Source of the DNA: Tumebacillus sp. BK434
Lineage (GTDB): Bacteria > Bacillota > Bacilli > Tumebacillales > Tumebacillaceae
Reading direction: 5' to 3'
Assembly (NCBI RefSeq): GCF_004340785.1
Contig: NZ_SLXS01000003.1
Span: forward strand, 157,689 to 221,688
DNA length: 64,000 bases
Below, in pieces: positions 1,672 to 43,721 of the stretch. The position numbers were made by a program, and so were the translations under genes. Below the pieces are notes generated by a model. The model saw only the letters and a list, made by a program, of their open reading frames with translations. It was not told where the DNA came from and did not search any database. The first letter of the stretch is position 1. Every line of letters begins with the position of its first letter.

Positions 1672-3279
1672 TTACTCCGACTTGTTCCCCGCCTTCGGGT
1701 CCGGCACAAAGGAAGGCTGGTAGCCCTCATACTTCACCGTGGTCATCATCCCCGCCGCCGCATGGTGCAGGTCGTGGCAGTGGAACATCCAGTTGCCGTC
1801 ATTGTCGGCGACAAACGCCACGACGTACGTCTCGCCCGGCTTCACGTTCAGCGTGTCTTTCAGCAGCGGATTACCTTCCAGCGGACGGCCGTCTTTTTGC
1901 AAGACCTGGAAGAAGTGCCCGTGCAGATGCATCGGGTGGTCGCTTGTGCCTTCGTTTGTCATCGTGACTTTCACCTGCTGCCCTTTTTTCACCTGCAAAG
2001 GCGGAATGTCCGGGTGGATGTTGCCGTTGATCGTGTAGACTTCCTGCGCCGCGCCGTCTTTCTGAATCACTTTGTTGTTGAGCAGCAGGGTCGTCTCCAC
2101 ATCGTAGTTGACGTTTATGTTGACCGGCGCTGCTTTGCCGTACGCTGTGATGTCGAGCGGCGACAGTTCCACGGCCGGCGCTGCATAGTCGTGGCTGTCG
2201 TTGCCATCCACCTCGACGTGCACGGCCATGTCGCCTTTCGCTTGCGAATCGTTGGCACAAAGGATGCCAAAATTCGCCCCGGCGGTCAGCTCCACATCAT
2301 AGCGCTCTCCCGGCGCGATGGCGAGCAGAGAACCGCTGACATCCGGGCTGCTCTGCAAGGCCTGCCCGTCGATGTGGGTGATCTTGAACGTCTGGTTGGT
2401 CAGGTTGAGCTGATGCGTCTGGTACCCGGCATTGATCAGCCGGAGCTTGATCTTCTCGCCCTTTTTCACCTGCAGCGGCTCGACTTCGCTGCCCGCCTTG
2501 CCGTTGACGGTGAAGATGCTGTACATCTGCTTCATCATCTTATCGTGGCTGATCACCGGGGTGGATGCGCCGCCGTTGTCGCCACTATGTGCGCTGTGAT
2601 CCGTTCCGGCATGACTCCCACTGCCTTGCTTGCCAGAATCGTCTCCTTTACTGCCCCCGCCGCCATGCCCGCCGTGATCGGTACCCGCACCACTCGCCGC
2701 GAACATCTCCGGCGACCACTCATCGAGCAGCAGCGTAAACTCGCGGTCGTACTTCACCTTCTGCTCTTTTGGCTCGACGACCAGCGCACCGTAGAGACCG
2801 CGGTCAACTTGGTTCGCGCTGTCCTGATGCGAGTGGTACCAGTAGGTCCCCGGCTCCGACGCTGTGAACTCATACGTGAACGACGCACCGGGCTGCACCG
2901 CGTTTTGCGTCACGCCGGGGATGCCGTCCATCGCGTTTGGCACCGGGTAGCCGTGCCAATGGATGCTCACCGGCTGCTGCAGCTTGTTTTTCAAGACGAC
3001 TTTCACCCGCTTCCCTTCCTGCACGCGGATCTCCGACCCCGGCACCGCCCCGTTAAACGTCCACGCTGTGATCTCCGCGCCCGCTTTCAACTCCCAGTTC
3101 GCTTCCCGCGCCTCGACCACATATTCTTGAAATGCGCCTTTCTCATCTTGCTTCTCCACGCCCTGCAGCACTTCGCTGCTCGGCTGCCCGTTCCACAACC
3201 CATAACCTCCATACGCCGCCGCAATGACAGCAAGCCCGCTGAACAGCGAGAGCATGACCGTTTTTCGCATTTTATTCAT
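1672..3279 (-). CDS. multicopper oxidase with His/Gly-rich insertion
   Basis: A 535-residue secreted or membrane-anchored oxidase. An N-terminal hydrophobic stretch (VMLSLFSGLAVIAAAYGGYGLW) acts as signal or anchor. The four copper-binding motifs are present in order: HWHG (~104), HSHQ (~150), HPMHLHGH (~445) and HCHDLHHAAAGMM (~497), the last carrying the type 1 Cys and an axial Met. Between cupredoxin domains 1 and 2 sits a ~45-residue insertion rich in His, Gly, Ser and Asp (DHGGHGGGG, GTDHSAHSGDNGG). Such oxidases act on Cu(I), Mn(II) or phenols outside the cell. Next to a metal ATPase, a role in metal tolerance is likely but inferred. The ATG has GGAGG 10 nt upstream. Confidence 0.93.
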   Translation of the reverse strand: MNKMRKTVMLSLFSGLAVIAAAYGGYGLWNGQPSSEVLQGVEKQDEKGAFQEYVVEAREANWELKAGAEITAWTFNGAVPGSEIRVQEGKRVKVVLKNKLQQPVSIHWHGYPVPNAMDGIPGVTQNAVQPGASFTYEFTASEPGTYWYHSHQDSANQVDRGLYGALVVEPKEQKVKYDREFTLLLDEWSPEMFAASGAGTDHGGHGGGGSKGDDSGKQGSGSHAGTDHSAHSGDNGGASTPVISHDKMMKQMYSIFTVNGKAGSEVEPLQVKKGEKIKLRLINAGYQTHQLNLTNQTFKITHIDGQALQSSPDVSGSLLAIAPGERYDVELTAGANFGILCANDSQAKGDMAVHVEVDGNDSHDYAAPAVELSPLDITAYGKAAPVNINVNYDVETTLLLNNKVIQKDGAAQEVYTINGNIHPDIPPLQVKKGQQVKVTMTNEGTSDHPMHLHGHFFQVLQKDGRPLEGNPLLKDTLNVKPGETYVVAFVADNDGNWMFHCHDLHHAAAGMMTTVKYEGYQPSFVPDPKAGNKSE

Positions 3280-7897: not shown

Positions 7898-9151
7898 ATG
7901 GCAATCCTGCCAAAGCTCGGACGCGCCATCTATGTACTGCTGGGCGGCATTTTGTTCACCCATCTCGGGTCGTACATGCTGCTGCCGTTTTTCGCGATCA
8001 TCCTGTCCACCGAAAAAGGGCTGTCGCTCGGCGCGACAGGGCTCGTGCTCGGCGCCGGCTCGATCGCATTTTTGACCGGAAGTCTGCTCGGCGGCTTTCT
8101 GTCCGACCGCTTCGGGCGGCGGATGACGATGGTCAGCGGCCTGTTGATCCGCGGGGCCGGGCTGCTTGGCTTCATCTGGGGAGCGTCTTTTTCCTCGCTG
8201 TTTCTGACCAACCTCGTGGCCGGGGTCGGCGGCGGCATTTACGCGCCGGGCGCGAAAGCGGGCATCGCGGCGCTGGCCTCGCAAGGCACGAAGACGACCG
8301 CCTTCTCCTACCGCGGGGTGGCGGCGAACATCGGGGTAACGATGGGCCCGCTGCTCGGGACGTATCTGCACACGAAGAGCTCCACGCTGCTCTTTGGCGG
8401 CTCGGCGGTCGTCTATTTTGTCTTGGCCCTGTCACACCTGCTGCTCTTGGAGCGCGACTGCCGCGGGGAAGATTGCCCGAAAGTCGACCGCCAAGGCATC
8501 AAGCAGATCTTGACCGACCGGCCGTTCTTGTATTTTTCGGTGGTGACGATCTTTGTCTGGGCGCTGTTCACGCAGTTCGCCTTGTCGCTGCCTCTGCGCG
8601 CCGCCCAGATCGATAGCGCACGCAACATCGGCCTGCTCTTCACCGCGTCGGCGGTGCTGGTCATCTTGCTGCAGGGCACGGTGACGCGCTTTTTCACGAA
8701 ACACCTCCACCCGTTGGGGACGATGGCGATCGGCATCTTGTTGATCGGCACCGGGCTTGGCTCGGTGGCGCTGTCCACCTCGTTCTGGCATCTGGTCGCG
8801 AGCGCAGTCGTCGTCACATTCGGCCAGATGTTTGTGATGCCGACGTCTGACGCCATCGTCGCCGACCTGGCCAAGCCGGAGCAGATCGGGAGCTATTTTG
8901 GCGTGGCGGCGTTCGTCTTTGGCGCAGGGGAGGCGCTCGGCAACATCGCAGGCGGCCAACTGATGGAACTGGCGGTAGCGATCGATTATCTGGCCCTGCC
9001 CTGGCTGCTCTACGGTGCGGTCGGGCTGCTGCTCGGCGGGACGTATTACCTGCTCCGGTTGTGGCAGCCGCTGGCCCGGCCGCTCGCACCCGTGACGGAA
9101 GAGCGGACGGAACACAACACGGGCCGCTGGCGACCGAAACAAAAAACGTAG
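7898..9151 (+). CDS. MFS transporter (drug efflux type)
   Basis: A 417-residue permease with about 12 hydrophobic segments. The cytoplasmic loop 2-3 motif is GGFLSDRFGRRMTM, the family signature of drug:H+ antiporters, and GVAANIGVTMGPLLG matches the motif C region of exporters. AAGGAGGAGGTG precedes the ATG. It is monocistronic with a terminator 7 nt after its stop. The substrate is unknown. Confidence 0.92.
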   Translation: MAILPKLGRAIYVLLGGILFTHLGSYMLLPFFAIILSTEKGLSLGATGLVLGAGSIAFLTGSLLGGFLSDRFGRRMTMVSGLLIRGAGLLGFIWGASFSSLFLTNLVAGVGGGIYAPGAKAGIAALASQGTKTTAFSYRGVAANIGVTMGPLLGTYLHTKSSTLLFGGSAVVYFVLALSHLLLLERDCRGEDCPKVDRQGIKQILTDRPFLYFSVVTIFVWALFTQFALSLPLRAAQIDSARNIGLLFTASAVLVILLQGTVTRFFTKHLHPLGTMAIGILLIGTGLGSVALSTSFWHLVASAVVVTFGQMFVMPTSDAIVADLAKPEQIGSYFGVAAFVFGAGEALGNIAGGQLMELAVAIDYLALPWLLYGAVGLLLGGTYYLLRLWQPLARPLAPVTEERTEHNTGRWRPKQKT

Positions 9152-9157
9152 CATGCA

Positions 9158-9197
9158 CTGGCACAGTCGACGCAAACGAGACTGTGCCACTTTTTTC
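9158..9197 (+). terminator. terminator
   Basis: Stem TGGCACAGTC / GACTGTGCCA with an 11-nt loop, followed by a T-run. It ends the MFS gene at 7898. Confidence 0.85.
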
Positions 9198-9239
9198 AAA
9201 ACATGATATGCTGATGGTAAAGATAGAAAGGAGTGACTT

Positions 9240-10424
9240 ATGAAACCGAATCGTTTGCTTATTTTGTTCTTATCAATCAACATCATCAACTATGTCGACC
9301 GCCAGATCTTGTCCGGCGTGTTCCCGCTCTTGAAGGATCATTTTCTGCTGTCTGACGCAGCGCTCGGCCTGCTCGGTTCGGCGTTTATGATCACCTACTC
9401 CCTCACCTCGATCCCGTTTGGCAAATGGGCCGACCGCTGGCTGCCGCACAAGGTCGCGGCGATCGGCGTCGCCGTTTGGAGCTTGGCGACCGTGTCGTCG
9501 GCGCTGGCCTGGTCGTTTGCCTCCCTGTTCGTGTTCCGCGCGCTGGTCGGCATCGGCGAAGCGGCGTACGTCTCGACGGCCGGCACGATCCTGTCGAACG
9601 CCTACCCGGAGCGCAAGCGTTCGGCGATCCTCGGGCTGTTCAACCTCGGCATGCCGATCGGCGGCGCGCTGGGCGTGGTGCTCGGCGGCTGGCTGGGCGC
9701 AAAATTCGGCTGGCAGTGGGCGTTTTTCATCGTCGGGGTGCCAGGCTTGCTGCTCGCCTACCGGGCATGGAAACTGCCGCTGCGCAAGCAGGCGGTGACA
9801 GAGCAGCAGCCGAGGTTCGGCATGGATGACCTGATCCGTCTGTTTTCGAAAAACCGGCCGTTCCTGTACACCTGCCTCGGCTACGCAGGCATCTCCTTTG
9901 CTTTTGGCGCGATCGTGCTGTTCGTGCCGACGTTCTTCGAGCGCTCGTTCGGCTACTCGCTGGAAAAAGCGACGCTGCTCGCCGGCGGCCTGCAAGTCGG
10001 CGCGGGCCTGCTCGGAGCGCCGCTCGGCGGTTGGATCGCCGACCTCTGGCTGAAGCGCACGGGGCGAGGACGAGCCTACACGCTGGTCATCTCGATGCTG
10101 CTCTCCGCCGTCTTCTTGTGGGTCGGGCTGTTTATGGAAAGCTTCCTCGCGTTCTTCCTCTCCGCGTTCTTCATGCTCTGGCATGTCGGCGTGGCGACGG
10201 CGCTGGTGTTCGACGTGACCGACAAAGCGATCTGGAACACGGCCGCTGCGGCGGCGATGTTCGTGATGCACTTCCTCGGCGACATCCCAAGCCCGTATCT
10301 GGTCGGCCTGATCTCCGACCACACGTCGCTCCTGTTCGCCTTCTCGCTGCTGCCGATCCCGATGCTGCTCGCCTCGTTCTGCTTCTGGAAAGCGGGCACG
10401 TACCTGCAGCGGAGACCTGCCTGA
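9240..10424 (+). CDS. MFS transporter, spinster-like group
   Basis: A 394-residue permease starting at ATG with GAAAGGAG upstream. NYVDRQILSGVFPLL at the start is the hallmark of the spinster (Spns)/hexuronate-like MFS group, followed by SIPFGKWADRW and the R-rich motif YPERKRSAILGLFNLGMPIGGALG. The substrate is unknown; some eukaryotic spinsters move lysolipids or sphingoid bases. It is a single gene ended by a terminator that overlaps its stop codon. Confidence 0.9.
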   Translation: MKPNRLLILFLSINIINYVDRQILSGVFPLLKDHFLLSDAALGLLGSAFMITYSLTSIPFGKWADRWLPHKVAAIGVAVWSLATVSSALAWSFASLFVFRALVGIGEAAYVSTAGTILSNAYPERKRSAILGLFNLGMPIGGALGVVLGGWLGAKFGWQWAFFIVGVPGLLLAYRAWKLPLRKQAVTEQQPRFGMDDLIRLFSKNRPFLYTCLGYAGISFAFGAIVLFVPTFFERSFGYSLEKATLLAGGLQVGAGLLGAPLGGWIADLWLKRTGRGRAYTLVISMLLSAVFLWVGLFMESFLAFFLSAFFMLWHVGVATALVFDVTDKAIWNTAAAAAMFVMHFLGDIPSPYLVGLISDHTSLLFAFSLLPIPMLLASFCFWKAGTYLQRRPA

Positions 10425-31717: not shown

Positions 31718-34700
31718 TTATCCCTGGCGTAAGGTTAGTTCTCGCAAAACTCTAAGCGCAAGAGCCAACAATTGCGCTTCTTTATCCCCACCGCCAATGA
31801 GCCTATTGATATGCAAATGCAGAAACGTCTCCGCCACGCGCTCAAGAAATGTTTCATTTCCTAGCCGAACAATGACCTTCCGATAATCAAAAATCTTGTT
31901 TCGGCGCTCCTCCATGATCCTCGCGATTTCCCCATGAATCCAATCTTCTTTCTCTTCTGCAAGCCGTATCAGTTGACTTCTTTTTTTGGCATATCCTTCG
32001 CGAGACGGTTTCATGGTAACAATCGATTCTAACCAACTCAATTGATCATTCCTGTCCGGAAAGAAGCACGTCATCATGTCCAAAACGGAGAAGACTCCCA
32101 AAGTCTCAAGATCAGCAGATTTACTATTCTTTGAAGAGAAGTCATGCAGAAAAACAGCAAGTCGGCTATCAGCTGCAAAGATTTTTTCAGCAGATTCAAC
32201 CGCCTCGAGTCCCCCGAAACGTTCAATTTCGCGTTCATAGGTGTCATACGACAGACGAAGCAATATCCCCTTTTGTTGCAGCGTGGATGCCCACTGAGCA
32301 AGGAGGGGGATGAGTTGATGGACCAGCAGTGAAGACTGACCATGGAATCGGAGACGAAGATGAGGTTCGGGTTCATCGAAACGAATGTAGTAAAACTCTT
32401 CGAACAATGCTTTGCTGAGGGCTTGTTCGCAAAATGCTTTTAGGTGTTTCCTCAGAAATTCATTCTGCTGACGATGCGGAATATAGAGCTTTGCGTAAAG
32501 CCACTCACTGCCTGTGAAAAAGGTTCTGTCTTTGATCTCACAGTCCGGCAGATATGTGCCCCACCTCAACTCCCTTGCTTCGGTCACGGCAGCAGCATCT
32601 GCTTTTTTTAGAAATGGAAAAACAAATTCGGTTGCATGACGCCCAACAGGCCCCTGACACCAAGACCCTTGCGGATCATAACAACATTCGGTCAAGGTGA
32701 GATACTGATGTTCTGTAAGTTTGTTGAACGCGTTCTGCAAAAGAGCGAAGTGGAGCTCATTATCCAAATCAAGCATCATCCGCTGATCTTCCTCAACAAG
32801 ATAGAGATAACGAGGTACCTTCCATTCCTCTCTCCAAGTTTGAAGATTCGAGAACTTTGACAGCCTCCATTGGGCCGGGGCGATCACGATCCTTTTGTAT
32901 CGGAGGCGTGGCAGGAATGGCGCCTGTTTCATATTCCCCCAATTCATGGGTTCCCACTGTTTAGATCGTTCGGTTGCTAGTTCCAACAGAAATCGATACA
33001 CATTTGGCACACCCACCAGATTCAACATGTGGTTGGTAACAGGAATTACTTCCCGATTGAGTGATCTTGATTTCAGGTAGAAAAATTCACCTGTACAACC
33101 GACCAGCAAATCTTCTAATGAAATCACGCGTTGATCCTGGTCCGAATGAAAGACACCTAACAGGATCTGGAAATCCCTTGAAGCCTGTGTAATGGTTAAG
33201 TTGGCATCGCGGTCTGTACATGGGAGAAAGATTACCTCGGCAAATATTGCTTCTGGCCGATGTGACTGTTCGGCCTGATGAATTTGCAGAAACTGTTCTT
33301 GCAAATTCAATTGTTCCGTCAGACTGAATCGCCCGAAACTTTTCCCCGCACCAAAAGAGCCGCTGTTTTCATTCAGCCATATCAAATAATCTCCACTGTT
33401 CAACGCTTCGACAGACTGCGCTTCAACAGAAGCATACAATTCCATGGAAAGCGGTGAGTGTGCAAACTTTGGCGGTACAGATTCAAGATTCGCTAATGTA
33501 TCGTCAGTGAGTTCGACTTCCAACTGCCGTTTTGCCACAGCCTGCATCGCCAAAGTCGTTACATACGTCTCCCGCATCCGGGATTGAGTTGCTGGCTTGG
33601 GATCGTATTCGCGATGGCCGGCAGGAAATTTGTAGAGTGCAGGAGAACCTAACCCCACCTCATCGTCCAGCAATTCTAGCAATGGCACTTCACGATCTCG
33701 ACCATATCGCTCCAAAAAATCATTTCGAAACCCTTGGAGATGCGGATTGCCAACCTGTCGGCAGGACAATCTCCAGATGATCTCGGCCGCGGCCTCCAGT
33801 TCTTTTTTGATCGATCCCGGCAGAGCGACCTCACATCCGTTTAACATGACATCCACTTGCAAAGGATGCTTCACATCTGCGAGGTCTTTCATCGATTTGC
33901 TTAGTTCCAAATATGTTGCTGTTCCTGTTCCCATTGGAATGTGATGATAGCTGGCAAGATCTCTGGAGACTGCCGCAAGCTTTTCCGTAATCTCGTCAAT
34001 CCCTTCGAGCGATACCAAAAGGTCCATCAAACGTGTGAACGGATGCTTGTTCGACAGTGAAGAACGCAATTCTGAGATCAAATATTCACGTTGAAGAAGA
34101 TCCTCTAGAAATCTGCGGACTTCCTTAAGATTGGCTTGTGTAAAACGGGCAGCTATTCGTTCCGTTAATGTTTCAAACGCGATCGGCTCTCCAGCTTCTT
34201 GTAGCGCAAATTCAACAGTTTGAGAACGATGCAGAGAACTTCTCATCAATGCGTGATGTTGCTCAGCTCTGCCGTACCTGTTCACATAGGGGAGTCTGAT
34301 CTTATTCCCCGCTAGATAGACGGCCGGGTTTGTTTGCACTCGTAATTGACGAATCAGTTCCGGCCGCGATTCAAGTTCCCTGATCAATCTCAATGTCCAT
34401 TCCATATCCGGCCTGGCATGCTTCTGATAAGAATCGAGCTGGGAGAACTGGAAAGCAGCCTGTTCCCTGTATCCGCCAACAGCGACCCCGGCAAACAGCC
34501 CATAGGGAGTGGGGCGTGTCGTCATCCTGATCAGATATCGAAGCAGGCTGTTTTCAATCTGGCTTCTTTTTCGGGGCTTGATTTCTTGTGATAGGCAGGA
34601 TAGAGAGTCATATAGTGAAGGACTTGCTGCGGCCAGCGCCTCGAGAACCGGTTTCTCTTCGAATGCACGATAAAGGTCCGCTGCCTTAACCGTATTCTCC

Positions 34701-34789
34701 CATACTTCTACTGGGAAAACGTTTGCCCGCACCAAATAAAAATCAGCAAGTCCGTATCGTCCGGCATTCCCCCAAGAAGTCTCGTTCAT
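31718..34789 (-). CDS. class I lantibiotic dehydratase (LanB), full length
   Basis: A 1023-residue enzyme with both parts of LanB. The N-terminal glutamyl-tRNA-dependent glutamylation domain (~1-740) shows RYLIRMTTRPTPYGLFAGVAVGGY. The C-terminal elimination (SpaB_C/thiopeptide-type) domain (~755-1015) shows EFYYIRFDEPEPHLRLRFHG and FLHLHINRLIGG. It should dehydrate Ser/Thr of the precursor to Dha/Dhb. GGAGG 11 nt upstream lies in the end of the radical SAM gene, whose stop is 6 nt away. No LanC cyclase or LanP protease gene follows. The gene is AT-rich relative to its surroundings, consistent with horizontal transfer. Confidence 0.95.
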   Translation of the reverse strand: MNETSWGNAGRYGLADFYLVRANVFPVEVWENTVKAADLYRAFEEKPVLEALAAASPSLYDSLSCLSQEIKPRKRSQIENSLLRYLIRMTTRPTPYGLFAGVAVGGYREQAAFQFSQLDSYQKHARPDMEWTLRLIRELESRPELIRQLRVQTNPAVYLAGNKIRLPYVNRYGRAEQHHALMRSSLHRSQTVEFALQEAGEPIAFETLTERIAARFTQANLKEVRRFLEDLLQREYLISELRSSLSNKHPFTRLMDLLVSLEGIDEITEKLAAVSRDLASYHHIPMGTGTATYLELSKSMKDLADVKHPLQVDVMLNGCEVALPGSIKKELEAAAEIIWRLSCRQVGNPHLQGFRNDFLERYGRDREVPLLELLDDEVGLGSPALYKFPAGHREYDPKPATQSRMRETYVTTLAMQAVAKRQLEVELTDDTLANLESVPPKFAHSPLSMELYASVEAQSVEALNSGDYLIWLNENSGSFGAGKSFGRFSLTEQLNLQEQFLQIHQAEQSHRPEAIFAEVIFLPCTDRDANLTITQASRDFQILLGVFHSDQDQRVISLEDLLVGCTGEFFYLKSRSLNREVIPVTNHMLNLVGVPNVYRFLLELATERSKQWEPMNWGNMKQAPFLPRLRYKRIVIAPAQWRLSKFSNLQTWREEWKVPRYLYLVEEDQRMMLDLDNELHFALLQNAFNKLTEHQYLTLTECCYDPQGSWCQGPVGRHATEFVFPFLKKADAAAVTEARELRWGTYLPDCEIKDRTFFTGSEWLYAKLYIPHRQQNEFLRKHLKAFCEQALSKALFEEFYYIRFDEPEPHLRLRFHGQSSLLVHQLIPLLAQWASTLQQKGILLRLSYDTYEREIERFGGLEAVESAEKIFAADSRLAVFLHDFSSKNSKSADLETLGVFSVLDMMTCFFPDRNDQLSWLESIVTMKPSREGYAKKRSQLIRLAEEKEDWIHGEIARIMEERRNKIFDYRKVIVRLGNETFLERVAETFLHLHINRLIGGGDKEAQLLALALRVLRELTLRQG

Positions 34790-34795
34790 ATGACG

Positions 34796-36160
34796 TTACG
34801 CCTCCGTTTTATGAAAAGTGGCTTGACGGTATCGCAAGCTCACATAATCTTCGAGTTTGCTTTTCAGCGGAGGACAGGGCCGAGCGCTTTCCTGTTCAAT
34901 CCGCACCAGTGGGCAGTATGCGCCATGGCAGATCGGGTGCAATTTGCACGATTGACACACTTTGTCGGAAAGTCCGTCCACCGACACCCACTGACTAAAC
35001 TTCATCTGATCAAGCTCCAACACACCGTCTGCATGCAGTTGCCCGACTTGATTGACCGGATTATTAAAAGCGACTGTACACTTGTAGATCATACCGTCAG
35101 AACCGATGACTAGAGAATTCGGTTTCGCTGCGTAACAGACGTTGTGATTTAGCAATGCATCCGAATACTTCTCTGAGTGAAGTCCCTGTTCGAGCCCGTA
35201 CCATGTTTCTTCCAATGCGATCAGGTTTGCATCTTTTGCTGTGCAAACAGGCAGGACTTCATCATTTTTACCGCCCCATTTCCCAACCGCATGCAAGTCA
35301 AATGTAAAGCGTGCGTCTGTTCCAAACGTCGTGACCAATTCATCCAGAAACACTCTGATATTCGGGGCATTTTCACTGGTAAAATTCATACGAATTTTGA
35401 TTTGTACGTCCAAATCAGAATCTCGGATGGAGATCAGGTTCGTCATGATTTGTTGATACGTGCCTTGCCCTCCCATTAAAATCCTGGTCTGGTCATGATA
35501 TTCTTCCGTACCGTCCACTGTAATTTGATACTTTGATACTCCCAGTTCAAACAATCTGCGAGCGCGATCGACCGTCAGCAAATATCCGTTTGTCGTCATG
35601 GTACCTAGAAAAGCTACACCGTTTGCAGTACAAATGTCATACAGTTTTTGGGATACATTCTCCACGACATCATACGCAACCAACGGCTCTCCCCCAAACC
35701 AACCTACCGTTAGAAAATCCCACTTCTCGATATTTCGTTGCACCCACTGAACCAAACTGCTTTGCAACTCTTCAGACATTTTCCCTTTCAAAAATTCCTC
35801 GTAGCAGTAAACACAGCGAAAGTTGCACTGCTCCGTAGGCATGATGATCAGTTGCTGTGAGGTTCCTTTATTGAACAACTCCTGATACTCGTGGCGGGTA
35901 TAGGCCAGCTCATTCAGATAACTCGGAACCAGAAATCCCAAATCAAATAATTTGGCGTGAGTATCCTGCAACGGGACGGCTGATTCGTAGTGATTTTGCA
36001 AGGCTGTAAAAGAAGCCGGTGACGTGATCATCTTGCCCGATGCGGTATTGTAGAGTAGGAACTTCCCTTTCGTATAATCATTCGGTTGGATTTCCACGTT
36101 ATACATCGACCACTTCACCTGATCCAAAATTGTCGTGCTTACTGCTTGGTTTTTGAGCAT
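34796..36160 (-). CDS. SPASM-domain radical SAM peptide maturase
   Basis: A 454-residue enzyme starting at ATG 36160 (MLKNQAV) behind AGAAGGGGTG; the longer open frame reads back through the precursor region and is not used. Residues 1-100 look like the N-terminal peptide-binding region of such maturases. The radical SAM cluster motif is EQCNFRCVYCYEEF (~115), with GEPLVAY-type GGE motif (WFGGEPLV). The C-terminal SPASM region has KCTVAFNN, VCQSCKLHPICHGAYCPL and a final CPP, enough Cys for auxiliary clusters. Enzymes of this type form thioethers or carbon-carbon crosslinks on RiPP precursors. It is between the precursor gene and lanB. Confidence 0.93.
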   Translation of the reverse strand: MLKNQAVSTTILDQVKWSMYNVEIQPNDYTKGKFLLYNTASGKMITSPASFTALQNHYESAVPLQDTHAKLFDLGFLVPSYLNELAYTRHEYQELFNKGTSQQLIIMPTEQCNFRCVYCYEEFLKGKMSEELQSSLVQWVQRNIEKWDFLTVGWFGGEPLVAYDVVENVSQKLYDICTANGVAFLGTMTTNGYLLTVDRARRLFELGVSKYQITVDGTEEYHDQTRILMGGQGTYQQIMTNLISIRDSDLDVQIKIRMNFTSENAPNIRVFLDELVTTFGTDARFTFDLHAVGKWGGKNDEVLPVCTAKDANLIALEETWYGLEQGLHSEKYSDALLNHNVCYAAKPNSLVIGSDGMIYKCTVAFNNPVNQVGQLHADGVLELDQMKFSQWVSVDGLSDKVCQSCKLHPICHGAYCPLVRIEQESARPCPPLKSKLEDYVSLRYRQATFHKTEA

Positions 36161-36196
36161 AGGTGCACCCCTTCTAATAGTCTTGTAAAGAGGAGA

Positions 36197-36225
36197 GGGG
36201 CCGGAAGTTACACTTCCAAGCCCCC
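36197..36225 (-). terminator. hairpin between precursor and maturase genes
   Basis: Stem with GGAAGT / ACTTCC at the loop and GGGGC / GCCCC at the base, located in the 79-nt gap after the precursor stop. Such attenuators let the short precursor gene be transcribed more than the enzyme genes. No strong T-run follows, so it would be a partial terminator or an mRNA stabiliser. Confidence 0.55.
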
Positions 36226-36239
36226 AAAAATTCATAGAA

Positions 36240-36341
36240 TCAACCGCACCCGCAGTTATTGATCGTGTTGGTTTTGTTTCGATCAGCCGGGATCTCGTTG
36301 ATCTCTTCGACTTCTTCAAATACAACGAATTGCGCCTCCAT
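36240..36341 (-). CDS. RiPP precursor peptide (33 residues) ending NCGCG
   Basis: ATG at 36341 with GAAGGAGGGAG upstream. The leader part MEAQFVVFEEVEEINEIPAD is acidic, and the last 12 residues are NKTNTINNCGCG. Thr24 and Thr26 could be dehydrated by the LanB, and Cys30 and Cys32 could form (methyl)lanthionine, sactionine or other thioether bonds with them or with neighbours. It is the first gene of the operon, directly before the SPASM maturase and LanB, which is the normal place for a RiPP precursor. Its size and the two-Cys tail differ from known lantibiotics. The core boundary is inferred. Confidence 0.85.
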   Translation of the reverse strand: MEAQFVVFEEVEEINEIPADRNKTNTINNCGCG

Positions 36342-37085: not shown

Positions 37086-38348
37086 TTACACCGCCTGCGT
37101 CTCTTCTGCCAACCGGTTGCTTTCCAACTTCCCTTTCAGCCACAGCATCAGCCCGGCGGCCGACACCACGCAGATCGCGGCCAGCATCCAGCCGCCGATC
37201 GCGCTGGGAATGAAGCCGCCGATCGCCGAGAACAGCGGGAGCGAGATCCCGTAGGCCAAACGCGACATCGACAGCCAGGTCGCGACGACGCGGCCGCGCA
37301 GCTCCGGCTTGGAGTAGGTCATCAGCGAGGTCTCGGTGATCACGTTGACCTTCGACTGGAAAATGTTCGCGAGCAGCATCACCGCGAAGAACAGATACCA
37401 GTTGTGGATGATAAACATACAGCCAAGACCGATCCCGTAGAGCATGTTCGACGGGAAGTAGATCTTGAAATACGAGCTGTCATCAAACTTGCGTTTCTTA
37501 AAGTACTGTTTGAGCAGGAAGGCCCCGATTACATACGCCACCGCCGTCACCGAATAGCCGATCCCGACGCCGGCATCGCCCGCTTTCAACTCATTGAGCA
37601 CATACAGCGGGAAGAGGATGTAGATGAAGCCGAGGCAAAAATCGCGGAAGAACTGCAGCCAGAAAACGCCGACCAGCTGCGGGCATTTTTTCACAAAATC
37701 GATGCCTTCTTTCACCTGCTTCAGGTACGGCGGGCGCACCACCGCTGGCTTAGCGAGCGGCTGATACTTGATCAGCGCAATGAAAACCGCCGACACCACA
37801 TAGGAGAACGCATCGAAATACAGGATGTTCACCGCTCCGATCCACTGTGCCAAAAACCCGCCCAAAGCGCTCGCCAGCACCATCGTGGTCGAGTTGAGCA
37901 GCGCGAACGACGAAGTCGCCGCGATCAGGTTCTGCTCTTTGAGAATCTCCGGGATCATCGACGTTCTCGCCGGCTGAAACGCTGCCGACGCAAACGCGCC
38001 AAACGCGATGCAGACGTAGATCACCCAGATGTTTTCGATCATCACCCCGGCGATGATCCCAAGCGTCGAGAACACGCGCAGGATGTCAATCCAGATCATC
38101 AGGTGCTTCTTGTTCCAGCGGTCGACGAACGGACCCATGACGATGCCGCCGAACAGCACCGGCAGGACGCTGGCGATAAACAGGCCGCCGATCGAAGCCG
38201 CATGGGGCACGATCGCATAGATGACGGAGATCAGCGCGATCGTTTTAAACCAGTCGCCAAACAGCGAAATCATCTGTCCGAAATAAAGCATGGTAAAATT
38301 GCGGTTTTTAAACGGAGACGGCAATTTCTCCGCAGTCGCAGTGGACAT
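37086..38348 (-). CDS. MFS exporter of Trp-peptide unit 1
   Basis: A 420-residue MFS_3/EntS-like permease: FKNRNFTMLYFGQMISLFGDWFKTIALISV, MGPFVDRWNKKHLMIWIDILR, AAFQPARTSMIPEIL and GRVVATWLSMSRLAYGISLPLFS. It is a close paralogue of the unit-3 MFS at 42046 (same motif at nearly every loop). It follows the unit-1 HemN-like gene by ~90 nt, with a hairpin in between. AAAGGGGGG precedes the ATG. The repeated pairing with peptide and radical SAM genes suggests it exports the modified peptide. Confidence 0.9.
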   Translation of the reverse strand: MSTATAEKLPSPFKNRNFTMLYFGQMISLFGDWFKTIALISVIYAIVPHAASIGGLFIASVLPVLFGGIVMGPFVDRWNKKHLMIWIDILRVFSTLGIIAGVMIENIWVIYVCIAFGAFASAAFQPARTSMIPEILKEQNLIAATSSFALLNSTTMVLASALGGFLAQWIGAVNILYFDAFSYVVSAVFIALIKYQPLAKPAVVRPPYLKQVKEGIDFVKKCPQLVGVFWLQFFRDFCLGFIYILFPLYVLNELKAGDAGVGIGYSVTAVAYVIGAFLLKQYFKKRKFDDSSYFKIYFPSNMLYGIGLGCMFIIHNWYLFFAVMLLANIFQSKVNVITETSLMTYSKPELRGRVVATWLSMSRLAYGISLPLFSAIGGFIPSAIGGWMLAAICVVSAAGLMLWLKGKLESNRLAEETQAV

Positions 38349-38437: not shown

Positions 38438-39799
38438 TTATTGGATGATCGCAAGCTCGGTGTTTTCGTAGAAGTCTTTGTCCTTTTGCATCACGTCGAC
38501 ATAGGCGTCGTACGTTTTCTTCTGCGCTTCCGGCAGCAGGTCGATCATGACGTGCATGTACCAGATCTTGCCGAGCTCGGTCAGCTTCAGCAAACCGTCT
38601 TCGCGCACGACCAGCCCCATTTTTTCGTGCTTCTCGATCTTCTCCCAGTACTCGGACGGCAGGTCGTGCTGACGCAGGTACTCGAGGCTGACTTTCATAT
38701 GTTTCGGGAAGTAGATCAGGCCTTTTTCTTTCGCCTGGTATTCTTTCGCGCGCATGACCGGCAAGGTGCCGTTTTCAACGGCGCGGATGTACTCGTCGGT
38801 CTTCACGCTGTTCATGTGCGACATGCCGCTCAGGTAGGAAGCGGCCGCCTGGCCGCAGCCGATGTATTCGTCTTCGTAGCGGCCGTAGATCGTCGCGCCG
38901 AATTTGAAGTCTTTGTACGCCGCATCGCCTTTGGCAAAGGTGTAGATGTGCGTCTGCTCATAGCCGTGGTTGAGCAGGTAGGAGTTGACGAATTGATGCT
39001 GGAGCACTTTGTCGTCCGCTTTCGGCGGCTCCGGCACTTTGCCGTCTTTGATCATGTTCAGGAAGCCTTTCGAGGTCACAAGGTACTCTAGCGGATAAAC
39101 GTCAACGGTGGTGGTGGACAGCTGACGCACGTTTTCGAGGTCCTCGTGCAGTTGCTCGATCGTCTGGCCCGGCAGTTGATACAGCAGGTCCATGTTGTAC
39201 GCTTTGAAGTACTTGTCGGCGAGGTCGCGGGTGCGCTTGATCTCGTCGAGCGATGCGGTCAGGTTGAACAGTTTGCGGTAGTACGGGTTAAACGTCTGCA
39301 CACCGAAGGAGATCCGGTTGACACCGTTCGCCGCCATCGCTTTCAGTTTGTCTTCCGTAGCGCTCTTCGCTTCGACCTCGAAGCTCCACTCGATGTCGTC
39401 CTTGAGCGTAAAGTTCTCCTGGATCGTCGTGCAGAGATCTTCGATCATCTTCGGGGACAAGACGGAAGGCGTACCGCCGCCGACATAGACTGCATCAAGC
39501 TTCAGCTGCTTGACGTACGGCGTGCTGGCGATGGCTTTCAACTCTTTCAGCAGCGCATCCACGTAAGGCTGCAGTTTGTCTTGGTAGTTCGTGGAGCGGA
39601 TGAACGGACAGAACGTGCAAATCGTGTCACAGAACGGAATGTGGACATAGAGCGATTTCGTTCCGGGCAGCGGCGTGCGCGCCGAGTTCAAAAATTGACG
39701 AACGGTCTCCACCGGTTCCGGCCCTTCTTGAATGAACGGGTAGAGATAGTTCCACATGTTAGGCAGCTTTTTGTAGGGCAATGCGTTATGCTGCGACAT
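38438..39799 (-). CDS. HemN-like radical SAM protein of Trp-peptide unit 1
   Basis: A 453-residue radical SAM protein with a HemN/HemW-type arrangement: YVHIPFCDTICTFCPFIRS (cluster CxxxCxxC, ~60), VYVGGGTPSVLSP, GVNRISFGVQTFNPYYRKLFN, and YNMDLLYQLPGQT. The C-terminal ~90 residues form a HemN_C-like winged helix (YWEKIEKHEKMGLVVREDGLLKLTELG). It is closer to HutW/ChuW and class C radical SAM methylases than to heme-synthesis HemN. It is paralogous to the unit-2 protein at 40296. Three tiny Trp-peptide ORFs lie directly upstream, so they are likely substrates. RBS AAGGGGG is 10 nt before the ATG. Confidence 0.88.
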   Translation of the reverse strand: MSQHNALPYKKLPNMWNYLYPFIQEGPEPVETVRQFLNSARTPLPGTKSLYVHIPFCDTICTFCPFIRSTNYQDKLQPYVDALLKELKAIASTPYVKQLKLDAVYVGGGTPSVLSPKMIEDLCTTIQENFTLKDDIEWSFEVEAKSATEDKLKAMAANGVNRISFGVQTFNPYYRKLFNLTASLDEIKRTRDLADKYFKAYNMDLLYQLPGQTIEQLHEDLENVRQLSTTTVDVYPLEYLVTSKGFLNMIKDGKVPEPPKADDKVLQHQFVNSYLLNHGYEQTHIYTFAKGDAAYKDFKFGATIYGRYEDEYIGCGQAAASYLSGMSHMNSVKTDEYIRAVENGTLPVMRAKEYQAKEKGLIYFPKHMKVSLEYLRQHDLPSEYWEKIEKHEKMGLVVREDGLLKLTELGKIWYMHVMIDLLPEAQKKTYDAYVDVMQKDKDFYENTELAIIQ

Positions 39800-39885
39800 C
39801 TTTGTAAGTACCCCCTTTTCGTGATCAGGGGCTGACAGGGGTCGCCCCCTGTCAGCCGGTATGTGAACTGCCGGGCCCTGCTATG

Positions 39886-39978: not shown

Positions 39979-40038
39979 TTACGCTTCCACCACAACGACA
40001 GAAATCCACTCCGCTACCGGAAGCCATTTTTGCATCAT
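39979..40038 (-). CDS. 19-residue Trp peptide with two Trp motifs (unit 1)
   Basis: MMQKWLPVAEWISVVVVEA, starting at 40038 or the next Met, with AGAAGGGGG 4-5 nt upstream. It contains two Trp segments (KWLPVAE and WISVVVVEA) spaced like the repeats of the unit-2 peptide. It lies between the 10- and 9-residue ORFs. Proposed substrate of the HemN-like enzyme. Confidence 0.6.
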   Translation of the reverse strand: MMQKWLPVAEWISVVVVEA

Positions 40039-40090: not shown

Positions 40091-40123
40091 CTACTCAGCC
40101 GCGACGACGATCCATTGTTTCAT
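40091..40123 (-). CDS. 10-residue Trp peptide MKQWIVVAAE (unit 1)
   Basis: ATG with GAGGAGGT 7 nt upstream, ending TAG after ten codons: MKQWIVVAAE. The motif W-I-V-V-A-A repeats that of the other peptides. It is the first ORF after the unit-1 promoter (27 nt from the -10 box), so it is well placed for strong expression. Confidence 0.65.
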   Translation of the reverse strand: MKQWIVVAAE

Positions 40124-40252: not shown

Positions 40253-40282
40253 ATTAAAAAACCGGACTGCACGCAGTCCGGT
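40253..40282 (-). terminator. terminator of Trp-peptide unit 2
   Basis: Minus-strand stem ACCGGACTGC / GCAGTCCGGT followed by TTTTT. It directly follows the unit-2 HemN-like gene, which therefore has no MFS gene of its own. Confidence 0.88.
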
Positions 40283-40295
40283 GGCTTTCTTCTTA

Positions 40296-41660
40296 TTAAG
40301 CAAAGACGATCAGCTCGTCGTCGAACGTAAATTCTGCCCGTTCGTTCAGCGTGGCGGAGATCGTATCGTGCAGGTGTTTCGTGCGCTCCGGCAGCATTTC
40401 GATCATCATGTTCATGTACCACGGCTGGCCTTCGCGGGTCAGCTTGAGCAGATTGCCGTCGCGGACGATCAGGCCTTTTGCTTCAAACTCATCGAGCTTC
40501 TCGTAGTAGCGGGCATCGAGCGCCAAGCGGTCGATGTCGTCGATGTCGATCGACATCCGCTTCGGGAAGTAGATCAGTCCTTTTTCGATCGCGTGGTACT
40601 CATTGACGATATCCGCGCCGAAGCCCGTCTCTTCGACCGCTCGGATGTAAGGTTCCACCTGATCGAAGTTGCGGTAGACGAGGCCGGCCTGATACGAGAA
40701 CGCCGAGAGCCCGGCACCGATGCACTCATCTTCGTAGTGGCCATACAAGGTCTCGCCAAAGACGAAACGCTTGTGCTCCGCATTCTGGCGGATAAACGTA
40801 TAGATGAACTCCTGGCCGTAGCCGTGCTCGATGAGGAAGTTCGTCACCACTTCCTGCTGGGCGACTTTCTCATAGGCGTTCGGCGGTTTCGGCAGGCGTT
40901 CTTTTTTGATCGACTGCAGGAAGCCTTTGGAGGTGATCGTGTAATCGAGCGGGTAGGCGTCGATCGAGGTCGTGTTCAGATCGACCGCATGCTGCAGGTC
41001 TTCCAGAATCTCATCGATCGACTGGCCCGGCAACTGGTACAGCAGGTCCATGTTAAACCCTTTGAAGTACTTCCCGGCCAGTTCGCGGGTGCGCTTGATC
41101 TCGTCGTGCGAGGCGGTCAGGTTAAACATCTTGCGGTATTTCGGATTGAAGGTCTGCACACCGAACGACATCCGGTTGACGCCGATCTCATGCATCGCTT
41201 TCAGTTTGTCTTCGGTCGCGCTTTTCGCCTCGACTTCGAACGTCCACTCGTAGCCTTCTTTCAGCTTGAAGTTGCTGTGGATCGTCTCGCCGATCTGGTG
41301 AATCTGCTCCGGCGAAAGCACGGAAGGCGTGCCGCCGCCGACAAAGATCGCATCGAGCGCAACGCCTTGCATGCGCGGGGTGCCGGCGATCGACTTCAGC
41401 TCTTTGACCAGCGCGTCGACGTACGGCTGAAGCTTGTCCTGATAGTTGGTGGAGCGGACAAACGGGCAGAACGTGCAGATCGTGTCACAGAACGGCACGT
41501 GCATGTACAGCGTCTTCTTGCCACGGTTCGGCGCCGGCTGCTGCAAAAACTGGCGCACATGTTCGACCGACAGCTCGCCGCGCGAAAGATACGGATACAG
41601 GTAGACCCACATCTTCGGCAGGCTGGAAAAAGGCAATTCTTTCGATCCGGAATGGGACAT
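40296..41660 (-). CDS. HemN-like radical SAM protein of Trp-peptide unit 2
   Basis: A 454-residue paralogue of the unit-1 enzyme. It shows the same YMHVPFCDTICTFCPFVRS cluster motif, FVGGGTPSVLSPEQ, GVNRMSFGVQTFNP and FNMDLLYQLPGQS, plus a HemN_C-type end (RYYEKLDEFEAKGLIVRDGNLLKLTREGQPWYM). ATG at 41660 is preferred, with AGAGGAGG 10 nt upstream; the open frame extends 16 codons further without a ribosome site. The 26-residue triple-repeat peptide gene lies 150 nt upstream in the same transcript. Reaction unknown; a C-methylation or crosslink of the Trp repeats is a hypothesis. Confidence 0.88.
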   Translation of the reverse strand: MSHSGSKELPFSSLPKMWVYLYPYLSRGELSVEHVRQFLQQPAPNRGKKTLYMHVPFCDTICTFCPFVRSTNYQDKLQPYVDALVKELKSIAGTPRMQGVALDAIFVGGGTPSVLSPEQIHQIGETIHSNFKLKEGYEWTFEVEAKSATEDKLKAMHEIGVNRMSFGVQTFNPKYRKMFNLTASHDEIKRTRELAGKYFKGFNMDLLYQLPGQSIDEILEDLQHAVDLNTTSIDAYPLDYTITSKGFLQSIKKERLPKPPNAYEKVAQQEVVTNFLIEHGYGQEFIYTFIRQNAEHKRFVFGETLYGHYEDECIGAGLSAFSYQAGLVYRNFDQVEPYIRAVEETGFGADIVNEYHAIEKGLIYFPKRMSIDIDDIDRLALDARYYEKLDEFEAKGLIVRDGNLLKLTREGQPWYMNMMIEMLPERTKHLHDTISATLNERAEFTFDDELIVFA

Positions 41661-41810
41661 GTGGATAACGCCTCCTCTTTTTGAACTTTCTGAAAGTTGT
41701 GTGTTCATGCGTCATGTATGTGATAACTCAATGAGTTCGAACGCCGTTAAGGAAAGACGGAGCGAGAACCGCGGTTCCCCCTCCGTCGACGAGAGATTCG
41801 ATCCCCGCCA

Positions 41811-41891
41811 TTACGCCGCTACGATGATCCAGTTGCGCTCTTGCACAACGATCCAGTTGCGTTCAACCGCAATGATCCAGTTCTTTTCCAT
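41811..41891 (-). CDS. 26-residue peptide with three tandem Trp repeats (unit 2)
   Basis: ATG with GGGAGGTG 7 nt upstream, ending TAA. After MEK the peptide consists of three units: NWIIAVER, NWIVVQER and NWIIVAA. The DNA repeats with a 24-nt period (AACTGGATC each time). A tandem-repeat substrate peptide with one Trp per repeat is what multi-core RiPP precursors look like. It sits under a near-consensus promoter and before the HemN-like gene. Products of nearly the same sequence are encoded in unit 1. Confidence 0.8.
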   Translation of the reverse strand: MEKNWIIAVERNWIVVQERNWIIVAA

Positions 41892-42011: not shown

Positions 42012-42047
42012 AGAAAAGAAAAGAACCCTGATCGAATCAGGGTTCTT
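42012..42047 (-). terminator. terminator of Trp-peptide unit 3
   Basis: Minus-strand stem AAGAACCCTGAT / ATCAGGGTTCTT with a TCG loop, followed by TTCTTTTC. It closes the unit-3 MFS gene. Confidence 0.85.
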
Positions 42048-43311
42048 ACGCTTGCAATGTCGTTTTTTCTTTCATCTGGCTGGTGAGCCTTGCTTTCAGC
42101 CACGGATAGACGCACAAGGCTGAAATCACGCAGACGGCAGTCAAGAGGTAGCCGCCGACAGCGATCGGGATGTAGCCGCCGATCACCGAAAACAGCGGGA
42201 GCGAGATCGCATAGGCCAGGCGCGACGCAGTCAGCCACGAGGCGACGACGCGGCCGCGATTGTCCGCCCGCGAGTAAGTCATCAGCGAGGTTTCGGCGAT
42301 GATGTTGACGCCTTGCGAGAAAATGTAGGTCACGACCAGCGCGACGAGGAACCAGTACCAGCCCGTCATCGAAAACATGACGCCGAGCCCCACGCCGTAG
42401 ATGATGTGGCAGGGCAGGAAAATTTTGAAAAAGGCGCTTTCCTCAAACGGCTTGCTTTTGAAATACCACCTGATCAGCCACGCCCCGATCAGATAGGCCA
42501 CCGCGGTCATCGAATAGCCGATGCCCATGCCGGTATTGCCCGTCTGCACCACTTCGAGGATGAAGACGGCGAACAGGATGTAGACATAGCCGAGCACAAA
42601 GTCACGGGCAGCGGTGATCCAAAAGACGGCGACCAGCTGCGGCGTGGCTCTGACATAGTCATAGCCTTCCTTCACCTGCTGCCAGTACGGCAGGCGCTGC
42701 TTGACCTCTTTTTGCAGCGGCTGGTAGCGCATCAGCCAGATGCAGAAGGCGGCGAACAGATAGGAGAACGCATCGAACAGCATGATCGGGTACGGTCCGA
42801 CCCAATCGGCGACAAAACCGCCCAAAGCGCTGGCGACGACCATCGTCACCGAGTTCAAGATCGCGAACGACGACGTCGCTTTGACGATCTGGTTCTCTTG
42901 CACGATCTCCGGAATCACCGCCGTGCGCGCCGGCTGGAAGGCGGCAGAAATGATGCTGGAGATCACCATCAGGCCGTAGATCACCCAGATGTCCGCCAGA
43001 TAGACGCCCCAGACGATCCCAAGGGTCAGCACGAAGCGCAGCAGGTTGGTCCAGATCATGATCTTCTTTTTGTTCCAGCGGTCGACCAGCGGGCCGACGA
43101 AGATGCTGCCAAACAGCGAAGGCAGAATCGTGGCGATAAACATGCCGCCGACCGTCGAGGCGGAGGGATGCAGATCGTAGAGCACGACGATCATCACCAC
43201 GCCGCGGAACCAGTCGCCAAACAGCGAGACGAGCTGGCCGAGGTAGAGCATCGTATAATTGCGATTGCGGAACAGGGAAGGCTCTTTGGCTACCGCTTTG
43301 GGACTGCTCAT
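42046..43311 (-). CDS. MFS exporter of Trp-peptide unit 3
   Basis: A 421-residue MFS_3/EntS-like permease, paralogue of the unit-1 exporter: FRNRNYTMLYLGQLVSLFGDWFRGVVMIV, VGPLVDRWNKKKIMIW, AAFQPARTAVIPEI, GRVVASWLTASRLAYAISLPLFS. ATG at 43311 with AAAGGAGG 9 nt upstream; the open frame extends 13 codons further. It follows the fused peptide/HemN_C ORF by 68 nt with a hairpin between. Confidence 0.9.
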   Translation of the reverse strand: MSSPKAVAKEPSLFRNRNYTMLYLGQLVSLFGDWFRGVVMIVVLYDLHPSASTVGGMFIATILPSLFGSIFVGPLVDRWNKKKIMIWTNLLRFVLTLGIVWGVYLADIWVIYGLMVISSIISAAFQPARTAVIPEIVQENQIVKATSSFAILNSVTMVVASALGGFVADWVGPYPIMLFDAFSYLFAAFCIWLMRYQPLQKEVKQRLPYWQQVKEGYDYVRATPQLVAVFWITAARDFVLGYVYILFAVFILEVVQTGNTGMGIGYSMTAVAYLIGAWLIRWYFKSKPFEESAFFKIFLPCHIIYGVGLGVMFSMTGWYWFLVALVVTYIFSQGVNIIAETSLMTYSRADNRGRVVASWLTASRLAYAISLPLFSVIGGYIPIAVGGYLLTAVCVISALCVYPWLKARLTSQMKEKTTLQA

Positions 43312-43335
43312 GAGAATTCCTCCTTTATCAGGTAC

Positions 43336-43372
43336 GCGAAAAGCCAGCACACAGGGGGTTCCCGCGTGCTGG
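43336..43372 (-). terminator. hairpin between HemN_C fragment and MFS gene (unit 3)
   Basis: Minus-strand stem CCAGCACGCGGG / CCTGTGTGCTGG (one G-T pair), followed by CTTTTCG. The position and the CCAGCA motif match the unit-1 hairpin, as expected for duplicated units. Confidence 0.6.
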
Positions 43373-43379
43373 ATGCCGC

Positions 43380-43721
43380 TTATGAAAGCATGATCAATTC
43401 GTCGTCAAACGTGAAACCGGTGCGCTCGTCCAGCTTCTCCGTGCCGAGGTCATGCAAGGCGCGTATCCGCTCCGGAAGCATCTCGATCATCATGTTCATG
43501 TACCACGGCTGGCCTTCGCGGATCAGCTTGACCTTGCCGTCTTTCCGCTTGATCAGGCCTTTCGCTTCGAACTCGACGAGCTTCTCGTAGTAGCGCACGT
43601 CGAGCTCTTGGCGGTCGATGTCGGCGATGTCCATCTCCAGCCGTCTGGCGAATGCAGCGGGACTCGTGTCCCCCGATCCGCCCACTTCCCGCGGCTCGAT
43701 AACCCAGGAGTTGCGTTCCAT
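43380..43721 (-). CDS. Trp-peptide start fused to a HemN_C domain (truncated radical SAM gene, unit 3)
   Basis: A 113-residue ORF with GGAGACGGGAG upstream of the ATG. It begins MERNSWVIEPRE, resembling the Trp peptides (ERN-W-I pattern), then a Gly/Ser linker, and from about residue 27 matches the C-terminus of the unit-2 HemN-like protein almost residue for residue (DRQELDVRYYEKLVEFEAKGL; EGQPWYMNMMIEMLPER; FTFDDELI). The cluster-binding catalytic domain is missing. The simplest origin is a deletion that joined a peptide gene to the end of the following radical SAM gene. The intact frame, ribosome site and promoter mean it may still be made, perhaps as a binding or regulatory protein. Confidence 0.75.
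   Translation of the reverse strand: MERNSWVIEPREVGGSGDTSPAAFARRLEMDIADIDRQELDVRYYEKLVEFEAKGLIKRKDGKVKLIREGQPWYMNMMIEMLPERIRALHDLGTEKLDERTGFTFDDELIMLS

Follow-up and report, generated by a model that had tools for sequence, protein, structure and literature searches.

The 64,000-nt stretch of DNA that was analysed (the window) carries two genes for HemN-like radical-SAM enzymes, rSAM1 and rSAM2, and two for MFS proteins, MFS1 and MFS2, together with very short ORFs for Trp-containing peptides (Table 1). The order on the minus strand is a collapsed cassette, MFS1, a terminator, a promoter, the 26-aa precursor, a stem-loop and rSAM1, followed by a terminator, three mini precursors, a stem-loop, rSAM2 and MFS2. 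As rSAM1 and rSAM2 are 55% identical, and MFS1 and MFS2 likewise, a duplication of the entire cassette is probable. The remnant of the third cassette is an in-frame fusion, apparently formed via deletion, and is absent from both congeners. M16 proteases adjoin the cassette and were rejected as processing enzymes: they are single-copy and sited elsewhere in three relatives, so that their adjacency is incidental and their role that of housekeeping. A separate RiPP-like cluster occupies positions 31718-36341 of the window.

Table 1. Features of the window and Trp-ending ORFs at other loci. Positions refer to the window unless a locus (L) is named.
Feature	Position	Strand	Remarks
Collapsed third cassette	43380..43721	-	MERNSWVIE start and last 90 aa of HemN-like enzyme, 66% to rSAM1
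MFS1, exporter-type MFS protein	42046..43350	-	
Terminator 3' of MFS1	42021..42047	-	Sets MFS1 apart from 26-aa precursor unit
Sigma-A promoter, near-consensus	41965-41937	-	TTGAAA-17-TATAAT
26-aa precursor MEKNWIIAVERNWIVVQERNWIIVAA, three W units	41811..41891	-	Cognate to rSAM1; orthologs with 4 and 2 units in congeners
Stem-loop between 26-aa precursor and rSAM1	41750..41790	-	Leaky-terminator-like; limits approximate
rSAM1, HemN-like radical-SAM enzyme	40296..41708	-	CX3CX2C, 470 aa
Terminator-like hairpin 3' of rSAM1	40261..40282	-	
Mini precursor MKQWIVVAAE	40091..40123	-	GTG-start ortholog MKQWIIIAAE in G006
Mini precursor MQKWLPVAEWISVVVVEA, two W units	39979..40035	-	Versus G006: 8 synonymous, 1 non-synonymous difference
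Mini precursor MREWIIVAA, 9 aa	39886..39915	-	Identical peptide in G005
Stem-loop GGCTGACAGGGGGCGACCCCTGTCAGCC between mini array and rSAM2	39830..39860	-	Limits approximate
rSAM2, HemN-like radical-SAM enzyme	38438..39799	-	
MFS2, exporter-type MFS protein	37086..38348	-	
Lantibiotic dehydratase-type protein	31718-34789		Separate RiPP-like cluster
Radical-SAM/SPASM maturase	34796-36325		Same cluster; near TIGR04463
Candidate precursor MEAQFVVFEEVEEINEIPADRNKTNTINNCGCG	36240-36341		Same cluster
23-24 aa Trp-ending ORFs	L119 4378-4449; L120 1204-1278; L022 3823-3894		
23-24 aa Trp-ending ORFs, further loci	L021 3886-3957; L018 4378-4449		
Conserved 50-54 aa ORF ending ...SEW	L128 3462-3626; L131 4314-4475; L132 4413-4565; L134 8284-8436		

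The earlier note had described the 26-residue peptide as a set of tandem Trp repeats behind a Shine-Dalgarno sequence and a near-consensus promoter, and our reading agrees with it. The Shine-Dalgarno sequence, CGGGAGGTG, ends 6-7 nt upstream of the ATG, the promoter matches the consensus at 11 of 12 positions, and the three 24-nt units share 18/24, 14/24 and 14/24 nucleotides in pairwise comparison. When positions 31-47.5 kb of the window were scanned for ATG ORFs preceded by a Shine-Dalgarno sequence, the 26-aa ORF was found and, between the two HemN-like genes, three further W peptides, all upstream of rSAM2 and each with a Shine-Dalgarno sequence of its own. This mini array is probably a separate transcription unit, since a terminator-like hairpin follows rSAM1. 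In all genomes examined, stem-loops of unrelated sequence come after the arrays of precursors, an arrangement that would fit with a precursor produced in excess over the enzyme.

To judge whether such ORFs occur by chance, we compared the loci of the family with 75 generic HemN/HemW loci (653 kb) obtained by a scan of genome contigs. Across 137 kb of the family's loci the W-ORF pattern appeared 31 times; it never did in the control, nor in the remaining 57 kb of the window. Dinucleotide shuffles of the two intergenic regions gave an expectation of 0.004 W ORFs, against 4 observed. These results indicate that the W ORFs are not chance occurrences. Over 56 codons, the peptides of the congeners G000 and G006 differ by 16 synonymous and 5 non-synonymous changes (Sd 16/35.3, Nd 5/132.7; Fisher p 5e-9), 16 of the 21 falling in third positions. 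The resulting dN/dS of 0.056 reveals purifying selection and is below that of rSAM1 (0.126); the I/V positions of the unit are constrained as well. The copies within the G005 mini array, a tiny sample, show no synonymous excess among themselves (2 against 8). A codon comparison within an ORF of G002 was out of register and was left out of account. Frameshifts or a lack of constraint in relatives, which the earlier note had named as grounds for abandoning its reading, were looked for and did not emerge.

The distribution of the HemN-like enzyme is patchy. It is present in all seven family genomes examined and, at the level of the class, in 11 of 398, whereas a stricter cut-off in a phylum sample retained it in 1 of 398 genomes, the window's own. 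It is also encoded on a Cytobacillus kochii plasmid, and a scan of viral contigs returned nothing. Clade I has 14 members (13 in the tree, and G240), all from Bacilli and including the plasmid copy. Every one has 1-7 W-unit ORFs in its locus, and an MFS homolog (30-94% identical) adjoins every clade I cassette. In three genomes (G001, G002 and G004) the precursor ORFs lie on the opposite strand and are convergent with the MFS gene, and those of G003 follow it. The PIIW ORFs described below come after the enzyme gene. The G363 cassette (locus L127) is bracketed by ORFs at 1942-3255 and 8321-9631 whose N-terminal 50 aa are identical (MSTLVQAKQLELELWHDCYLSERKKTGFVATLEMPGG...), possibly copies of a mobile element.

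Altogether the clade I loci hold 31 ORFs, 9-35 aa long, in which there are 54 W-[I/L/V]-x-V units and 54 Trp residues. The peptides have no Cys, no Tyr and no internal Met, and Trp is their sole invariant residue. Position +1 of Trp is I/L/V/F in all 54 units, position +3 is V/I/L in 50, and E or N occupies position -1 in 33; successive Trp residues are 5-9 positions apart, mostly 7. Tails vary (GVTIE, GTSDVEF, GDTKGF). The number of units changes among relatives while the unit itself is kept, which supports the multi-unit precursor suggested in the earlier note: the 26-aa ORF and its orthologs have three, four and two units in three congeners, the four-unit precursor MEKNSWIINVEKNSWIINERNWIVVQERNWIIVAV being that of G006 and the two-unit MSWIIHERNWIIIEN that of G005, where seven separate mini-ORFs extend over ~700 nt. 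Units are either fused in one ORF or split into separate nine-codon ORFs. In a sister genus there are 3-4 units per ORF, with separate mini-ORFs instead in one member. Further precursors are MNKWIAVEWIAVEPQWISVEPLWLPVVPVEA in G001, MSNEWISVKNEWIAV in two copies in G363, MKKEWVALKNEWVAL on the C. kochii plasmid, and MREWIVVVEN, MREWIIVVEN, MREWIVIVEN and MRKDWLVVV in G003. Single-unit ORFs such as MREWIIVAA bear out the suggestion that one unit can be a complete precursor, and it is plausible that the units of a longer precursor release equal products. The proposal that the ER between repeats is a processing site is not supported: ER occurs as the spacer in no genus but that of the window, the spacers elsewhere being EPQ, EPL, VE or KN, and the cassette encodes no protease.

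Next, we considered the identity of the enzymes. The best NCBIfam model for both rSAM1 and rSAM2 is HutW, but their scores of 203 and 220 bits fall well short of its cut-off of 400. As the scores for the HemN equivalog (144 and 157 of 325 bits) and the HemW equivalog (152 and 163 of 205 bits) are also below the cut-offs, the two proteins are not HutW, HemN or HemW. Pfam HemN_C matches rSAM1 marginally (24.9 against a cut-off of 24) and does not match rSAM2, and no RRE/PqqD model matched either enzyme. The cluster motif CX3CX2C (CDTICTFC) is invariant. By sequence, the profile matches HemN and the class C methyltransferase NocN, and the predicted structure (mean pLDDT 82) aligns with E. coli HemN 1OLT over 436 columns (TM 0.73/0.79). 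The model combines CX3CX2C with the full HemN fold including the C-terminal region, as in class C enzymes. According to a review, the latter share this didomain fold, TbtI has little need of a leader and an indole is methylated by NosN (PMC11285071). On account of these two precedents, leader-free chemistry directed at Trp is our first guess, and still a guess. By analogy, class C-type one-carbon chemistry has a little less than an even chance of being correct, and HemN homology by itself does not establish methylation.

The enzymes of a sister clade (clade II, ~30-36% identical) have partner peptides with a C-terminal Trp, and the radical-SAM phylogeny tracks the peptide type. The ends are PIIW (four), DIVW (two), ...SEW and ...CMW/VAW; MENQPIIWKNVEPIIWKNAAEPIIWNNEVAPIIW and MERNILIIW are examples, and an Alicyclobacillus plasmid encodes MRDIVWDIVW. 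Clade II peptides of 23-24 aa, e.g. MKSAIDLFKTDVTGVTTKGVCLW, are located 5' of SpeD-like genes in proteobacteria. Others of 50-54 aa with ends like TPKRLTRVVTSRVVSEW adjoin two B12-binding radical-SAM genes. No Trp-ending peptide was found at the Klebsiella plasmid cluster (L117), L019 or L020. As Trp is common to the peptides linked with the whole enzyme group, these observations support it as the target. The HemN-like radical-SAM clusters with 23-24 aa ORFs listed in Table 1 mostly carry a SpeD-like and an MFS gene, some also a P450 or an Orn/Lys/Arg decarboxylase, and two are on plasmids; they may represent a second, putative Trp-peptide pathway. In those with 50-54 aa ORFs, a HemN-like enzyme and two B12-binding radical-SAM proteins are accompanied by a peptide-binding and an MFS protein (domains checked in L128).

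The peptide genes are small, constrained at the protein level and linked to a modifying enzyme, and their core is conserved across relatives, as is expected of RiPPs. A separate leader or recognition segment, usual but not universal in RiPPs, was not found; entire ORFs can be 9-15 aa long and consist of the unit only. Judging from gene content and conservation, the W-unit ORFs are very probably precursors, and the 26-aa ORF is likely to be the leaderless multi-unit precursor of a minimal RiPP-like pathway whose product would be enzyme-modified, trimmed and exported. The pathway would have three parts: one or more W-unit peptides, an MFS exporter and a radical-SAM enzyme with the HemN fold, which would recognise the short unit [E/N]-W-[I/L/V]-x-V itself rather than a leader and modify each tryptophan or its immediate surroundings; Trp is probably the site. 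The likeliest chemistry would be of the class C radical-SAM type on the indole, e.g. C-methylation or one-carbon transfer. No protease gene lies within the cassette, and housekeeping peptidases may shorten the peptide until a small product with Trp is left. On balance, we favour a short fragment or a single modified residue as the product exported by the MFS protein. Copy number would be raised in two interchangeable ways, by fusing 2-4 units or by repeating ORFs of nine to fifteen codons up to 7 times, each with its own Shine-Dalgarno sequence.

The peptide might instead serve as a carrier: excision would release the modified Trp, or a W-I pair, and the remainder would be degraded, in the manner of pearlin, PQQ or mycofactocin. 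This variant is a serious possibility, somewhat short of probable. It is consistent with the conservation of only W and two aliphatic positions beside variable tails, with an MFS exporter of the small-molecule type, with the lack of a protease or maturation gene in the cassette and with the C-terminal Trp of the sister-clade peptides; it also has a precedent in BhaC1, which modifies a C-terminal Trp on a scaffold peptide (PMC9850906). Against it, the unit W-[I/L/V]-x-V exceeds what a carrier of a single residue needs.

Three other explanations are less likely. Leaderless quorum-sensing peptides of the LCP type, possibly modified and sensed by a cytosolic receptor, would account for small exported products, and leaderless ORFs of ~8 aa are known as signals in Firmicutes (PMC10518010). 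However, neither RRNPPA/RopB nor any other receptor gene recurs by the cassettes in ORF lists and annotation, the peptides are multi-unit and their constant partner is a modifying enzyme, and we consider this explanation improbable. That same partnership, together with a radical-SAM phylogeny that follows the peptide type, makes it very improbable that the ORFs encode leaderless bacteriocins or toxic micropeptides that the MFS protein exports in unmodified form and with which the radical-SAM enzyme has nothing to do; the ORFs are indeed small, hydrophobic and tandemly duplicated, but peptides of nine residues show no known bacteriocin features. The window's order of Trp ORF, stem-loop and enzyme gene also resembles a trpL-like attenuator, in which ribosome stalling at Trp codons would control whether transcripts extend through the hairpin into the enzyme gene. 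The Trp codons, however, are never adjacent, being 5-9 codons apart, the I/V positions are constrained too, and G005 has seven ORFs over ~700 nt. Because five loci of relatives have the precursors downstream or on the opposite strand, we regard a trp-type attenuator as ruled out, the least probable explanation of all.

The system proposed here, a modified leaderless precursor, resembles several known ones in part. The class C thiopeptide enzymes (TbtI, PbtM2/3, NosN/NocN) belong to RiPP pathways and are similar in sequence and HemN-like didomain fold, but they act late on a large thiopeptide or indolic acid, whereas the putative substrate here is a leaderless peptide of 9-35 aa and the cassette has no further maturation gene. 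HutW/ChuW, anaerobic heme-degrading methyltransferases, provide the best NCBIfam model, but at about half of its cut-off, and heme-uptake genes are absent from the recurring neighbours. In pearlins (AmmA/BhaA), Trp is likewise modified on a peptide carrier to give a small product; here, however, no PEARL ligase is apparent in the cassette, Trp is encoded inside the unit and the enzyme is of another type. Streptide (KxxxW) and tryglysin (WGK, a 7-mer) are short Trp RaS-RiPPs made by radical-SAM enzymes of the SPASM type from leader-bearing precursors; their cores do not occur here, where the core is W-[I/L/V]-x-V. W[IL]xV is not among the 16 listed RaS-RiPP motif families (PMC13361665). Tandem identical cores in one precursor are also found in the TVG pathway (TvgA/TvgB), cyanobactins and dikaritins (PMC9062424), but the TVG pathway includes genes for a peptidase and a transporter, and neither its enzyme nor its motif is that of the W-unit system. 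LCPs are likewise translated from leaderless micro-ORFs of ~8 codons, but are not described as modified and are paired with RopB receptors (PMC10518010).

NCBIfam and Pfam contain no model for any of the peptides, and the one Rfam match was sub-threshold and due to chance. We found no description of the W-unit system in the searchable literature, which leaves subscription papers and some preprints outside its coverage. RiPP genome mining assumes a leader and usually an ORF minimum of 20-30 codons or more. We incline, by a modest degree, to the reading that the system is a new class of RiPPs whose precursor consists of the core alone and is one in which a HemN-fold enzyme acts at Trp without leader, recognition domain or dedicated protease, and that it represents a branch of the HemN-like superfamily acting on peptide Trp, internal or C-terminal by clade.

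The complete precursors, at 9-15 codons, would be too short for ordinary gene callers and would rank among the smallest precursors of a modified-peptide natural product, without a leader segment. If confirmed, the pathway would provide leader-free modification of Trp in very short peptides by one enzyme, and a natural experiment in two routes to higher core copy number. Together with the sister clade and its C-terminal Trp, it would define a large HemN-like group that shares one substrate residue.
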